Source: Opitutaceae bacterium
GTDB taxonomy: Bacteria > Verrucomicrobiota > Verrucomicrobiia > Opitutales > Opitutaceae
Direction: 5' to 3'
Assembly (NCBI GenBank): GCA_028284235.1
Contig: JANQSC010000001.1
Span: 1-35,302, forward strand
Length of the DNA: 35,302 bases
This document shows positions 1,373 through 9,500 of the stretch, piece after piece. The notes beneath the pieces are model-generated. The model saw nothing but the letters and a program-made list of their open reading frames with translations. It was not told the DNA's origin and searched no databases. Every line of letters starts with the position of its first letter. Position 1 is the first letter of the stretch. The position numbers and the translations under genes were made by a program.

Positions 1373-4219
<2,847 letters not shown>

Positions 4220-4307
4220 CAGAGTCTCAAAGAATTACGAAATGTCAGGGCTGGATCCCACTCAGCCCATGCGCGTCAACCTAACCTCCAGTATCCTGTT
4301 AACATGA

Positions 4308-4371
4308 ATCCTTGTCCCGCTTGCGGGATCTTTGTGACGCAACGCGTCATTTCGCCGCAAGGCGACTGTTG
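4308..4371 (-). repeat. Three-hairpin unit, copy 1 (left half of inverted pair)
   Basis: Read on the minus strand, the order is linker CAACAG; stem 1 TCGCC/GGCGA with loop TTGC; linker AAT; stem 2 GACGC/GCGTC with loop GTT; linker ACAAAGAT; stem 3 CCCGC/GCGGG with loop AA; linker ACAAGGAT. All stems are perfectly paired. Its linkers match copies 2 and 3 while its stem sequences mostly do not. Confidence 0.78.
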
Positions 4372-4386
4372 GACACCTTTTTCTTT

Positions 4387-4456
4387 CAACAGTGATCTCT
4401 TCGAGATCAAATTCCGCGCTGCGGAACAAAGATCCCGTCCATGACGGGACAAAGAT
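4387..4456 (+). repeat. Three-hairpin unit, copy 2 (right half of inverted pair)
   Basis: On the plus strand the order is linker CAACAG (4387-4392); stem 1 TGATCTC/GAGATCA with loop TTC (4393-4409); linker AAT (4410-4412); stem 2 TCCGC/GCGGA with loop GCT (4413-4425); linker ACAAAGAT (4426-4433); stem 3 CCCGTC/GACGGG with loop CAT (4434-4448); linker ACAAAGAT (4449-4456). It is the best-formed copy and points toward the sulfatase gene. Confidence 0.8.
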
Positions 4457-4558
4457 CTCAACCGAGTTTCGAGATTACTGGATAACCTCGAAAGTCCATC
4501 TCATCTTGGATTTCCAGACTCGCCAAGGTTCTCGGCGATCCATAGAACGCCCCTAACT

Positions 4559-6316
4559 ATGCCCTACCCCAAACTCTCCCTACTCCTGGCTTCCTTCGCG
4601 ATCTGCGCGTCCGCCTTCTCCGAGAATCGCCCGCCCAACGTGGTCGTCATCCTTACCGACGACCAAGGCTGGGGCGACTTGAGCGTGAACGGAAACGACA
4701 ATCTCTCCACGCCCGCCATCGACTCGCTCGCCGCGGAAGGGCTTACGTTCGAGAACTTCTACGTCTGCCAAGTCTGCGCTCCCACTCGAGCCGAGTTTCT
4801 CACCGGCCGCTACTACCCTCGTACCGGCGTGAGCGGAGTGAGCCGCGGACAAGGACGCCTCAACTACGACGAAACCACGATCGCCGACGTGTTTAAATCG
4901 GCTGGCTACGTAACCGGAGCCTTCGGCAAGTGGCACAACGGCACCCAATCGCCCTACCATCCGAACGACCGCGGTTTCGACGAGTACTACGGCTTCACCT
5001 CGGGCCACTGGGGCCACTACTTCAGTCCTCCGCTCGACCACAACGGCAGAAAGGTCCGCGGCCGAGGATACGTCGTCGACGATTTTACCGACAAGGCCAT
5101 CGAGTTTATCCAAAATAACAAAGAGTCTCCATTTTTCTGTTACGTTCCCTACAACACGCCCCACTCGCCCATGATGATCTCGGAACGCTTCTACGGGAAG
5201 TTCCGCGACGCGGACTTTCAACAACGCCACCGCGACCCCGAGAAGGAAGATCTGAACATGACCCGGGCCGCCCTCGCTATGTGCGAAAACATCGACTGGA
5301 ACGTCGGGCGGATCTTGCAGACGCTCGAAGAACTGGAAATCGCGGACGACACCATCGTCGTCTACTTTTCCGACAACGGCCCCAACTCCCTCCGTTGGAA
5401 CGGCGGCATGAAGGGCCGCAAAGGCGCCATCGACGAAGGAGGCGTTCGGTCCCCCTTCTTCATCCGCTGGACCGGACAACTCCCTCAAGATGAGACGATC
5501 GATCACATCGCCGGAGCGATTGACCTCCTCCCCACCCTGGCGGACCTCGCGGGAATCAATGCAAGAACGCGTTACCCCATCGACGGCCGCAGTCTCCGCC
5601 CTCTCTTGCGCGGCGATCAATCCAACTGGGAAGACCGCGCTCTGTTTTCGTTTCGCAATCGACAAGTCAGCGTTCGGACGCAGCAGTTCCGCTTGGACAG
5701 CGCGGGCAAGCTCTTCGACATTCCTGCCGATCGCGGACAACGTCGCGACGTGTCCCAAAAACATCCCGAAGTTACCAAGCGCCTTAAGCGTCAAGCCGAC
5801 TCCCACCTCGCGGCGATGCAGGCCGAAATCGAACGTTACCAAAGTCGACCCTTTACGGTCGGCTATTCTCCGTCAACGACTCTGCCCGCTCGCGACGGGA
5901 TCGAACATGGTGAGATCAAGCGGAGCTCAAAAGCGCCCAACAATTCTTTTTTTACTCATTGGAAACGTACCGACGATTCCATTACCTGGGAGGTAGACGT
6001 TGGAACTGCGGGCGTCTACGAAGCAATTGTTTACTACACGTGCAAACCCGAAAACGTTGGCGTCGACATTCTGATTTCCTCGAACAATGGCGGGGAAACC
6101 CAATCGACGATCACCGAAGCCTTCGATCCCCCGCTCTACGACAAGTCGATCGACCGGATGGAGGAGTCCCACTACTTCGTGAAAGACTTCACTTCGACTT
6201 CGCTCAGCACGCTTTTTCTAAAAACCGGCCCGGCCACGCTCACGCTTGAAGCGACTCGAATCCCCGGCGACGACGCAATCGATGTCCATTCGATCGAGTT
6301 GATTCGGTTGGATTGA
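4559..6316 (+). CDS. Secreted S1-family sulfatase (arylsulfatase/GalNAc-6-sulfatase type)
   Basis: The product has 585 residues with an N-terminal signal peptide (hydrophobic segment about 5-20). The S1 sulfatase core has Asp34-Asp35 in ILTDDQGWGD as metal ligands, and CAPTR at 73-77, whose Cys73 would be converted to formylglycine. AFGKWHNG gives Lys124 and His126, PHSP gives His202, and SDNG gives Asp272-Asn273; Lys285 or Lys288 in the following KGRKG stretch is a likely active-site lysine. Residues from about 430 to the end form a beta-rich domain with ITWEVDVGTAGVYEAIVYY, common as a C-terminal addition in PVC sulfatases. The enzyme hydrolyses sulfate esters, probably of polysaccharides, in the periplasm or outside the cell; the exact substrate cannot be read from the sequence. 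No formylglycine-generating enzyme is in the window. It is flanked on both sides by three-hairpin units and is convergent with the giant gene. Confidence 0.93.
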   Translation: MPYPKLSLLLASFAICASAFSENRPPNVVVILTDDQGWGDLSVNGNDNLSTPAIDSLAAEGLTFENFYVCQVCAPTRAEFLTGRYYPRTGVSGVSRGQGRLNYDETTIADVFKSAGYVTGAFGKWHNGTQSPYHPNDRGFDEYYGFTSGHWGHYFSPPLDHNGRKVRGRGYVVDDFTDKAIEFIQNNKESPFFCYVPYNTPHSPMMISERFYGKFRDADFQQRHRDPEKEDLNMTRAALAMCENIDWNVGRILQTLEELEIADDTIVVYFSDNGPNSLRWNGGMKGRKGAIDEGGVRSPFFIRWTGQLPQDETIDHIAGAIDLLPTLADLAGINARTRYPIDGRSLRPLLRGDQSNWEDRALFSFRNRQVSVRTQQFRLDSAGKLFDIPADRGQRRDVSQKHPEVTKRLKRQADSHLAAMQAEIERYQSRPFTVGYSPSTTLPARDGIEHGEIKRSSKAPNNSFFTHWKRTDDSITWEVDVGTAGVYEAIVYYTCKPENVGVDILISSNNGGETQSTITEAFDPPLYDKSIDRMEESHYFVKDFTSTSLSTLFLKTGPATLTLEATRIPGDDAIDVHSIELIRLD

Positions 6317-6327
6317 GGAATCAGAAC

Positions 6328-6394
6328 GAACGCGCCGGGGACGGCGCGTTCCACCTTCAGCTCGAATAGGTGGAACCCGACCTCCGGGCGGGTT
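6328..6394. terminator. Hairpin cluster after the sulfatase stop, possible terminator
   Basis: Starting 12 nt after the sulfatase stop codon, GAACGCGCCG (6328-6337) pairs with CGGCGCGTTC (6342-6351) across a GGGA loop, a 10-bp GC-rich stem. TTCCACCT (6349-6356) then pairs with AGGTGGAA (6368-6375), and AACCCG (6374-6379) with CGGGTT (6389-6394), followed by a short T-run and AT-rich sequence. The three stems share bases, so they are alternatives in part. Position and strength suit transcription termination between convergent genes, but the set may equally be a dispersed palindromic repeat. Confidence 0.45.
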
Positions 6395-6422
6395 TATATA
6401 CATAGGAAGATCCAAGCACAAA

Positions 6423-6492
6423 ATCTTGCTACCGCACAGCGGTATCCTGCTCCTGCGAAGCAGGATTTGATTCCGCTCGCGGAATCACTGTT
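6423..6492 (-). repeat. Three-hairpin unit, copy 3 (between the convergent genes)
   Basis: Read on the minus strand: linker AACAG (6492-6488); stem 1 TGATTCCGC/GCGGAATCA with loop GA (6487-6468); linker AAT (6467-6465); stem 2 CCTGC/GCAGG with loop TTC (6464-6452); linker AGCAGGAT (6451-6444); stem 3 ACCGC/GCGGT with loop TGT (6443-6431); linker AGCAAGAT (6430-6423). The layout equals copies 1 and 2, with different paired stems. It begins 16 bp beyond the end of the giant gene (stop at 6509-6511) and could also act as its terminator region. Confidence 0.75.
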
Positions 6493-6508
6493 AAACCAAA
6501 TACCTAAA

Positions 6509-9500
6509 TCAGTATTCGATTCGCTGAACCAGTCGGCCCTCGACCCAAACTTCCAGCTGAGCCTCTCCACTCGGACGGCTCACCGGTAGATTGAATGTCA
6601 ATCGATTTGTGGATACATCGAATTTGGGATCGTCCACTTCAATCCGAATATCGTCGCTGGTTCCCAACTCTCCATCCGGTCCCGCGAACACGGCGACGAC
6701 TTCGAATCCACTCTCAATCGTCTGAGCAATTGAATCATCCAATTGAATACGGGCGCTCGTTTGTTCAATATCGACAAGCTCGCTTGGAAGCGCCGTGGAC
6801 AAGGAAATCTCGCCCTTCGAGTCGCTCGGCCACAATTCCAGAGTCGAGCTACCAATAGTCACCTCTTCCAGCCAATCCGACTCCAACGTCCAGGGACGAT
6901 AGAGGAATACAGTCACCATGGCTCGAGTCGTCGCGCCGGTGTTGTCGGTGAATATAATCTCGATGGTTGTGAACGACGACGATCCAAACAGCGGAATACC
7001 GTCAAACAAAGCACGGTTCTTGGCAAGGCCTACCCAATCCGGGCCATCGGCAACGGTCAGCACGACCGTGCGGCCAACCGGAGCGGTCCAGTTGATCGGC
7101 AAGTCGAACAAAGTACCGTACTGCCACCAAACCGGAGTATCGATGGTCACCGAAATCGGTCCGGACGGTCCAGTCAGAAGCGTGGTGACTTGAGTCGCCG
7201 AGGTGTCGGCGCCTCCGTTGGAAGTTCCGCCATTGTCGCGGGCGAACACGCGCAGGATAAGCTCCTCGCCCGCCGCGTCCGGAGCGAGAGCGAACCGAAG
7301 CGTTCCATTGGCGTCGATGGTCGGGAGCTGGGAGAAGAGCTCCGGACGATCGGGGGTGACGATGAACTCGATCGTCTGTCCAGACTCGTTTGCGGGTCCG
7401 GTCGAGATGTCTGTTACCCAGTTTTCGAATACTTGCAGATTTGTCGTGTCGAGGACCGTCAAGTTGCGCGGCATAGTGAATGTAGGCGCTTGGTTGATGG
7501 ACGTAATTTCGATCGTAAACGAGAACTCAATCGAAGCGCCTTCGCCATCAGTGGCCACTACATTGACCGTCGCCAGTCCATTGGCGAATTCTGCAGGTGT
7601 GAAAGTCAGCGTCCCGTCCGTCGAAATCGTCGGCGCTACTGAGAACAACTCGGGACGATCAACTGTTATCGTCACCGTCAATTCCTGATCCGCCTCGTTC
7701 GCCGGTCCCGGAGCAATTCCGGCATTCCAATTCGGTATCGTCTGCGGGCCCGAATTCTCGTCAACGACTACATTATTTCCAACAATCGCTACGGGCGCGT
7801 CATTAACAGGCTGAAGCGTGATTGTTGTGGTTACAATCTCACTAGTCTCGACACCGTCATCGACGATGTAGCTAAAGCTGTCTTCACCAAAGAAATCAGG
7901 AAACGGCGTGTATGTGAAACTGCCGTCGGGAGAGAGCGTCAGCGTACCGTTGGTCGGCCCCTCGACCAGATTGACTTCCATCGCATCGTTCTCGGGATCG
8001 GAATCGTTGCTCAATACGTTGCCGACAACTGGGACGTCTTCCGTGCCTTCAAACGACTCTCCATTCGCGACTGGCGGCAGATTGTTGGGGTCGTCGAGAA
8101 TCAGTTCGACACGGTCGACGCTGGCCGAACTGGAAAGACCGCTCAACGTAACTAGGTCGAAGAACACAGTCACCGGAGTACCCGCCTCTAATCCAGCGAG
8201 GTCGATTGAGAATACGAGCTCTTGAGACAGGTCGACAACCCCTCCGGAAACAAAGCCAGGCTGCCCGTCGATTGTGACTCCACTTCCTAGATACAGTCTT
8301 CCATCTGACTGGAGATTGATGGCAGCGTCCGAGCCATCGAGCGCAGTTCCAACAAACGACGTTCCTGTTGCCGGATTGAGCAACGCCATTTCAAACGCGT
8401 CGCCAAACCCGCTCGCAAGCGCGCCCAGTTGCACATCCGATAGGGAGAACCTCAGATTCGTCGCGAACGCAGGTAGATGGAATGTCTGAGACAAGTCTGT
8501 GAAGAGTCGGTCGGAGGAATTTGTCAGCACGGCGACGCCATTCGTTATTGATACTTCGCCGAATATCTGCCACCCATCTGCAAGCGAAGAGAAGTAGCCG
8601 TTGATCAAGCCGACTCGAGGATCACCTAGTTCGTCGTCAATCGCTTGGGCTAGTTCGACAAAGCCGATGGCTGAGGCAGCCGTGGCAAAACTCGGTCCGC
8701 CCTCGCCAAGAACGCTGGCTTCCATGGCCGAATTCCATGAGTTTTCTAGAATCCGCGCTTCGAGTTGAGACGGCGTTCGGCGTTCTCCCGGCAACAGGCC
8801 AGGCGCCATTAGGCTGTTCGCGAACGCCGCCGCGTCCAGATGATTTCCATCTTCTGAAAGTTTGATCCACTCCCCATCGACATCGATTCCAGTTCCTCTT
8901 CCATCCACTATAATCTGGGATGCGAATCCGCTGAAATAGGAAGTGAATCCGTAAAGGTGACCCAACTCGTGCAATATCAGCGAATAAAGATCATAGCGAT
9001 CGCCCTCGACGCTCTCTCCCGGCTGGCTTAGGTTCCAGCCCAAGCTGGCGCCTGCTTTGTCAATCATTAGCAGGCCGGAAATCTCCCGAGACTCATTGTT
9101 AATTCCCGTAATAAACGCGTGGCCCAACTGATTCGCGGGCAAGTCTGTAATTTGTAGCGTGATACTGATTTCCGGCAACGAGGGCGCAAGGTTGCGCCAC
9201 GCGTCGATAGCGTGTTCCAGGAGGGATTCTGTAAATGATCTGAGGGAATCGACCGATGGATCGACGGGATCGCTATCCCCCGATCCAGGTGGAGGTCGCG
9301 TTAGCGCCGGCCCTGAATCCACACCCGGCATCGGTCTCGGCAAACCGACAAACGGAGAACCAGGCGAGAAGAACTGAGGCGAGTCTCCCGCCGTGCCGGG
9401 TTGACCGAGGAAAGCGCTGGTCGTCACGATACGCCCGCCGATAGCTAACCCAGCAGCCGATGCAAGAGCGGGCCGAGTCTGCATGCGAACGAAGTCTACG

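Follow-up and report, generated by a model that had tools for sequence, protein, structure and literature searches.

Three multi-hairpin units at the glnD locus

The window, by which we mean the whole 35,302-nt stretch of Opitutaceae DNA that was analysed, carries glnD, a sulfatase gene and three small units, each a row of hairpins joined by short linkers. The features are as follows.

1373-4219, + strand: glnD (PII uridylyltransferase; Pfam GlnD_UR_UTase), left neighbour, its 3′ end facing the pair of units 1 and 2
4308-4370, - strand: unit 1 ('T arm'), from sequence; model match 58.9 bits
4366-4370, - strand: unit 1 AACAG
4352-4365, - strand: unit 1 hairpin 1, TCGCC/GGCGA
4349-4351, - strand: unit 1 AAT
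4336-4348, - strand: unit 1 hairpin 2, GACGC/GCGTC
4328-4335, - strand: unit 1 linker ACAAAGAT
4316-4327, - strand: unit 1 hairpin 3, CCCG/CGGG
4308-4315, - strand: unit 1 terminal linker ACAAGGAT
4371-4387, no strand: 17-nt spacer separating units 1 and 2, which are inverted relative to each other as an 'IN' pair (AACAG ends facing inwards)
4388-4456, + strand: unit 2 ('TGA arm'), from sequence; model match 81.4 bits
4388-4392, + strand: unit 2 AACAG
4393-4409, + strand: unit 2 hairpin 1, TGATCTC/GAGATCA
4410-4412, + strand: unit 2 AAT
4413-4425, + strand: unit 2 hairpin 2, TCCGC/GCGGA
4426-4433, + strand: unit 2 linker ACAAAGAT
4434-4448, + strand: unit 2 hairpin 3, CCCGTC/GACGGG
4449-4456, + strand: unit 2 terminal linker ACAAAGAT
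4559-6316, + strand: sulfatase gene between units 2 and 3 (Pfam Sulfatase)
6423-6492, - strand: unit 3 ('TGA arm'), from sequence; model match 74.4 bits
6488-6492, - strand: unit 3 AACAG
6468-6487, - strand: unit 3 hairpin 1
6465-6467, - strand: unit 3 AAT
6452-6464, - strand: unit 3 hairpin 2
6444-6451, - strand: unit 3 linker AGCAGGAT
6431-6443, - strand: unit 3 hairpin 3
6423-6430, - strand: unit 3 terminal linker AGCAAGAT

These are the places at which the original prediction had put three copies of one element, and they were the only matches in the window to a covariance model of the unit (E≤0.01). The predicted order of parts (AACAG, hairpin, AAT, hairpin, 8-nt linker, hairpin, 8-nt linker) proved correct, with one small correction: stem 1 of the third copy is 8 bp long and closes a CGAG loop. 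Unit 3, with no detectable partner unit beside it, sits between the sulfatase gene and a very long gene on the opposite strand, both of which have their 3′ ends towards it. The latter is a reading frame of 9,594 amino acids (6509-35293, - strand) that runs almost to the contig end and holds CARDB, Ig-like and cadherin-like domains and about 30 RHS repeats; we predict a giant surface or RHS-type protein. Between the sulfatase gene and unit 3, at 6326-6395, are two further palindromes, both short, GAACGCGCC..GGCGCGTTC and AACCCG..CGGGTT, adjoining GGTGGAA/TTCCACC. By eye they resemble those around a Y1 transposase gene elsewhere (locus L076), and they perhaps belong to a separate REPIN-like family.

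With DNA parameters, the minimum-energy single-stranded folds of units 1 and 2 consist of exactly three hairpins (the centroid of unit 1 differs), and unit 3 also forms three, but with hairpin 2 extended into its linkers. With RNA parameters and equal coordinates, units 2 and 3 keep the three-hairpin fold and unit 1 prefers another structure. Folding was discarded as evidence on RNA versus DNA, since the two parameter sets, applied to identical stretches, disagree only for unit 1 and so do not separate the alternatives. The whole pair (4308-4456) also folds as one long hairpin in single-stranded DNA (z -8.96).

The units belong to a large dispersed family

We searched the 6.13-Mb genome with a pattern made of the linkers and the first T of stem 1, in which stem pairing plays no part. 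It matched 68 times and the reversed pattern not once, which excludes a chance origin. A covariance model built from ten units (R1) gave at least 136 matches in this genome, with 150 candidates scored, and 153 units at E≤0.01 within 305 kb of its DNA. Among distinct units, AACAG stands at the unit end in 142 of 149 and the length is 60-100 nt in 136 of 149; the linkers are constant, namely AACAG, then AAT, then twice A-N-N-A-N-GAT, mostly ending AGGAT.

Searches of relatives found further copies. Counting the genome itself each time, matches occurred in 10 of the 11 genus members (E≤0.01, some only weak) and, under the stricter filters of the wider searches, in 9 of 150 of the family (E≤1e-4), 8 of 372 of the order (E≤1e-5; one, G442 at L227, is doubtful) and 3 of 387 of the phylum. 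Matches were thus obtained in other genera too. In other species the same linkers join quite different stems, such as TGCCC/GGGCA and TGACC/GGTCA, and hairpin 1 is missing in some. Relatives of the unit with two to three hairpins occur in another family of the order; in two of its genomes, G043 and G238, hairpins 2 and 3 and the linkers match, while stem 1 does not pair in the way the model has it.

Collections of plasmids, phages and viruses gave no match. A scan of named genomes with the unit's own stem-1 sequence returned none, and with another pattern one, the metagenome-assembled genome Opitutaceae bacterium EAC85. Rfam had nothing in the window at gathering score, and a permissive search yielded one unrelated weak match outside the units. 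Among the titles and abstract openings listed by searches of an open library, none described this layout, and none of six words sought occurs in PMC12306157. We conclude that the units are a large dispersed family of small, spreading DNA repeats.

Stems change while remaining paired

The original prediction rested on paired arms that change together between constant linkers. In the wider family the stems covary very strongly, both in this genome and in relatives. The two results that had been named in advance as speaking against the prediction, a lack of further copies and stems that do not covary, are thus the opposite of what was found.

Pairing was measured on 67 distinct units from the linker-only pattern, with 24, 55 and 41 distinct hairpins 1, 2 and 3. 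The outer five pairs of these hairpins were 99, 92 and 94% paired, compared with 76, 65 and 73% when arms were redealt among copies (for ambiguous parses the best-paired one was kept, which introduces a small bias). The alignment of R1 matches in this genome, comprising 150 of the 153, agrees: in its 149 distinct units 97.8% of cells are paired versus 74.2% after shuffling, and 16 of 17 stem pairs show changes on both sides. The covariation score was 0.523, whereas shuffling gave 0.166 and sliding no more than 0.097; for 44 distinct units of relatives it was 0.475, against 0.143. These alignments were fitted to the model and so lean towards it, whereas the linker-only pairing test is model-free. 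Dropping duplicate rows reduced the alignments from 150 to 149, from 51 to 44 and from 56 to 55.

Close copies indicate how the stems change. When two stems are shared, the commonest difference in the third is a single base pair in which both bases have changed (103 of the 205 comparisons that differ in hairpin 2, and 123 of the 276 that differ in hairpin 3), and few half-changed base pairs are seen. Replacement of whole hairpins was therefore rejected as the main route. Hairpins 2 and 3 also cluster in length, at 13-15, 23-25 and 37-39 nt, with a further cluster at 9 nt for hairpin 3. Most members of the 23-25 and 37-39 nt clusters contain another hairpin within the loop, and some of the few that measure 50-52 nt consist of two adjacent hairpins. 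Stems thus seem to change in small steps that involve both arms, in addition to the insertion of hairpins. A module close to GCCACCGACnnnGTCGGGGTC, or its reverse, recurs inside hairpin loops of several units (e.g. L045 866-956 and L119 2186-2279).

The units appear to act at the DNA level

Covariation this strong in all three stems, together with a position near gene 3′ ends and strong folding (three hairpins as RNA for units 2 and 3), is what would be expected if the units were transcribed and the three-hairpin RNA acted in cis in 3′ untranslated regions or as a small RNA. A functional RNA strand is expected to show more G·U than A·C. In the stems of 248 distinct units, however, G·T and A·C occur 39 and 40 times (18/18 in this genome, 14/14 in the first set of relatives and 7/8 in the second; cells with gaps set aside and duplicate rows dropped), beside 32, 22 and 34 other mismatches, respectively. 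A small control of three tRNAs gave 7 G·T and no A·C (Fisher p 0.013). Moreover, the units lie on both strands, as inverted pairs require, with no fixed orientation relative to genes. The lack of a G·T excess and the inverted pairs favour DNA over RNA, and the RNA fold preferred by unit 1 and the Rfam result also count against a structured RNA, which we regard as unlikely. Of the two options left by the original prediction, then, the DNA-hairpin element known by its shape and linkers is the favoured one, its recognition by a protein being our inference, and the structured RNA is not. The units appear to act as DNA, judging from these sequence comparisons. Equal G·T and A·C would be compatible, too, with palindromes kept perfect by a purely mutational process that involves no recognition of structure, and such upkeep also fits the data.

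A more specific RNA role would be titration of CsrA by the linkers between hairpins, since linkers such as ACAAGGAT resemble the CsrA binding consensus. A CsrA gene is found in this genome (G000:C61:36302-36457) and in G007, G022 and G086, and GGA occurs in 107 of 149 second and 109 of 149 third linkers. However, another base precedes GA in 31 and 27 of 149, respectively, an inverted pair offers GGA on one strand in just one arm, the stems do not tolerate G·T, and two unit-bearing genomes gave no CsrA match (G001 with 21 unit matches, 97% complete; G009 with 12, 85% complete). The sponge is disfavoured because GGA is not in every linker nor was CsrA found in every host, and we consider it extremely unlikely. 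As a separate observation, CsrA is patchy within one genus, not being found in G001, G006 and G009.

Units are arranged in heterotypic inverted pairs

The units mostly alternate in orientation. Among gaps below 1500 nt, counted in this genome and related loci (some related places twice), 38 of 41 IN gaps (AACAG inside) span 6-41 nt and 42 of 50 OUT gaps (AACAG outside) span 3-60 nt; only three neighbours share an orientation. Within 130 nt this genome holds 30 IN and 36 OUT pairs, and 25 and 31 of them, respectively, join a TCGCC-type to a TGA-type unit. The spacers are alike between loci, with z 18.5 for OUT spacers of 40-79 nt (17 spacers), z 11.3 for IN spacers of at least 30 nt (12 spacers) and z 4.7 and 4.8 for shorter ones, relative to base-shuffled spacers, T and A runs at the spacer ends contributing to the likeness. 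In one place the order is unit, spacer, unit, spacer, unit, with two units identical. This arrangement is the plan of BIMEs and REP heterodimers.

Probable insertion and position relative to genes

At two loci units are seen in this genome only. The gene upstream of map is found in 11 of 11 genomes, and only this one has units there. None of nine relatives with glnD has a unit after it, one having only 46 nt at the site; in five of these relatives glnD is nevertheless still followed by what reads, by eye, as a sulfatase-like frame. Because these orthologous sites in relatives are free of units, the units at the glnD and map loci look like recent insertions; that every relative lost them independently is possible, though unlikely. 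Target-site duplication, a mark of MITEs of DDE transposons, was absent for IN pairs (3.7 nt versus 3.81 re-paired) and gave a weak signal for OUT pairs (4.31 versus 3.83 re-paired, sd 0.19), so the case for insertion is one of presence and absence. Downstream of glnD in G006 (L241) the sulfatase gene appears, by eye, to be decayed. In the stretch upstream of map (L219 and L220, L221, L223), other palindromes, containing GTAG, take the place of this genome's unit pair in some relatives, so a single 3′ end may receive repeats of more than one family.

With a rough gene caller applied to this genome and relatives, 96 clusters of units divide into 40 between convergent, 38 between co-directional and 12 between divergent genes, 5 at a locus edge and 1 inside an open reading frame. 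The neighbouring gene ends in this genome are 105 3′ ends and 53 5′ ends by the same caller. This preference for convergent over divergent positions, and the fact that three of five terminator-like sites in 4150-6600 fall in units, could point to bidirectional transcription terminators or stabilisers of mRNA 3′ ends. Such sites are, however, no commoner there than in shuffled sequence (5 versus 3.4, sd 2.3), units also lie between divergent genes, and orthologous gene pairs manage without them. We judge a terminator or stabiliser function very unlikely, although the units may have a secondary effect on mRNA ends.

Search for a mobiliser

Frames at several loci with widely spaced units were read by eye, and ten of the proteins, from between or beside units, were searched against Pfam. 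A transposase between such units was rejected, as no transposase domain was found among these ten; five of the ten had no Pfam match at all, and the others matched 3-keto-disaccharide hydrolase, methyladenine glycosylase, FG-GAP, DUF3179 and an aquaporin-type protein.

The units could instead be an ordinary REP/REPIN family with an unusual unit, mobilised by a resident RAYT (Y1 HUH protein). Their architecture equals that of REP head-head and tail-tail heterodimers, they are extragenic and 3′-biased, and this genome has three Y1_Tnp genes; Y1 transposases occur in 12 of the 15 genomes examined. However, the units have several hairpins each and no GTAG or CGTC tag. Of 51 Y1 matches listed, 31 loci were examined with flanks of up to 1.5 kb, and no unit was detected there at E<0.01; two unit-bearing genomes gave no Y1 match (G009, the 85%-complete genome with 12 unit matches, and G010 with 3). 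By eye, the Y1_Tnp genes at L075 (about 1278-2020) and L076 (about 1296-1980) adjoin other palindromes, of GTAGGGCC..-type and GGTGGAACGCG..-type, respectively. We therefore consider mobilisation by a resident RAYT improbable; Y1 genes beyond the 31 loci, or a Y1 protein acting at a distance, are possible mobilisers.

Discussion

The closest known systems are REPs and BIMEs. Like the units, the REP/BIME families of E. coli and Pseudomonas and the GTAG families of Opitutus terrae are extragenic, have many copies and are biased to 3′ ends, and they set two unlike unit types in inverted pairs with recurring spacers; REPs are known in a verrucomicrobium too. The density of 153 units in 305 kb, with one cluster of 96 in an open reading frame (rough caller), agrees with this habit, as do the inverted doublets. 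REPs are described as a single palindrome with a GTAG or CGTC tag, with GT pairing of stem residues often observed in the GTAG type (PMC3733652). In contrast to a REP palindrome of 20-50 nt, our unit has three hairpins and ends in AACAG, its stems vary widely within one genome and show no G·T excess, and hairpins are nested in its loops.

REPINs resemble the units in that their inverted doublets fold as one long single-stranded DNA hairpin and insertions are peculiar to one genome. REPIN ends are described as highly conserved sequences (PMC3116915), and REPINs are associated with a RAYT gene (PMC3116915, PMC8266576). In contrast, conservation at the unit ends lies mainly in the linkers, and no cognate RAYT adjoined copies in the 31 Y1 loci examined. 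IS200/IS605 elements and their derivatives are mobile DNA too, and they combine subterminal hairpins with single-stranded motifs that act in a guide-like way (PMC8266576); the units differ in having several hairpins per end and no transposase found beside or between those examined. Mitochondrial double-hairpin elements are reported to be mobile DNA with more than one hairpin as well, theirs being organellar. The family works like a BIME, but we do not class it as one.

We consider it probable that the units are non-autonomous, extragenic mobile DNA of a multi-hairpin type that works in the manner of REPs, BIMEs and REPINs with a different unit, namely about three short hairpins in a row, their pairs almost all Watson-Crick, with unpaired linkers of constant sequence between them. 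Units would become single-stranded, for instance during replication, and fold into hairpins, and a protein encoded elsewhere would cut and paste or copy the folded units. Mobilisation in trans as folded single-stranded DNA is thus probably how they spread. The protein would read the linkers and hairpin bases, so that the stems, their sequence being ignored, would be free to change as long as they stay paired; the constancy of linkers on varying stems suggests recognition by shape and joints. Hairpins also grow when another hairpin is inserted into a loop. The one-pair changes in both arms, the few half-changed pairs and the loop insertions lead us to propose that one arm is corrected from the other by template, or that selection acts for pairing.

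It is possible, though we lean against so strong a reading, that this is a new class of mobile DNA, in which a protein recognises evenly spaced single-stranded linkers held in place by hairpins of nearly any sequence, and in which stems are renewed by template-directed correction and loop insertion, so that the shape is kept while most letters are rewritten within one genome.

Covariation is usually a strong sign of a functional RNA; here it is extreme, in three stems, in a family that apparently acts as DNA, to judge from the missing G·U excess, the presence on both strands, the unit-free orthologous sites of relatives and the nesting of hairpins in one another. Covariation screens can therefore report mobile DNA, and the ratio of G·T to A·C offers a simple means of telling it from functional RNA. 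The family would also provide a natural system in which to study protein recognition of DNA shape independent of stem sequence, and the renewal of palindromes in genomes. A mobiliser other than a Y1 protein, if there is one, would represent a new kind of REP-like machinery.
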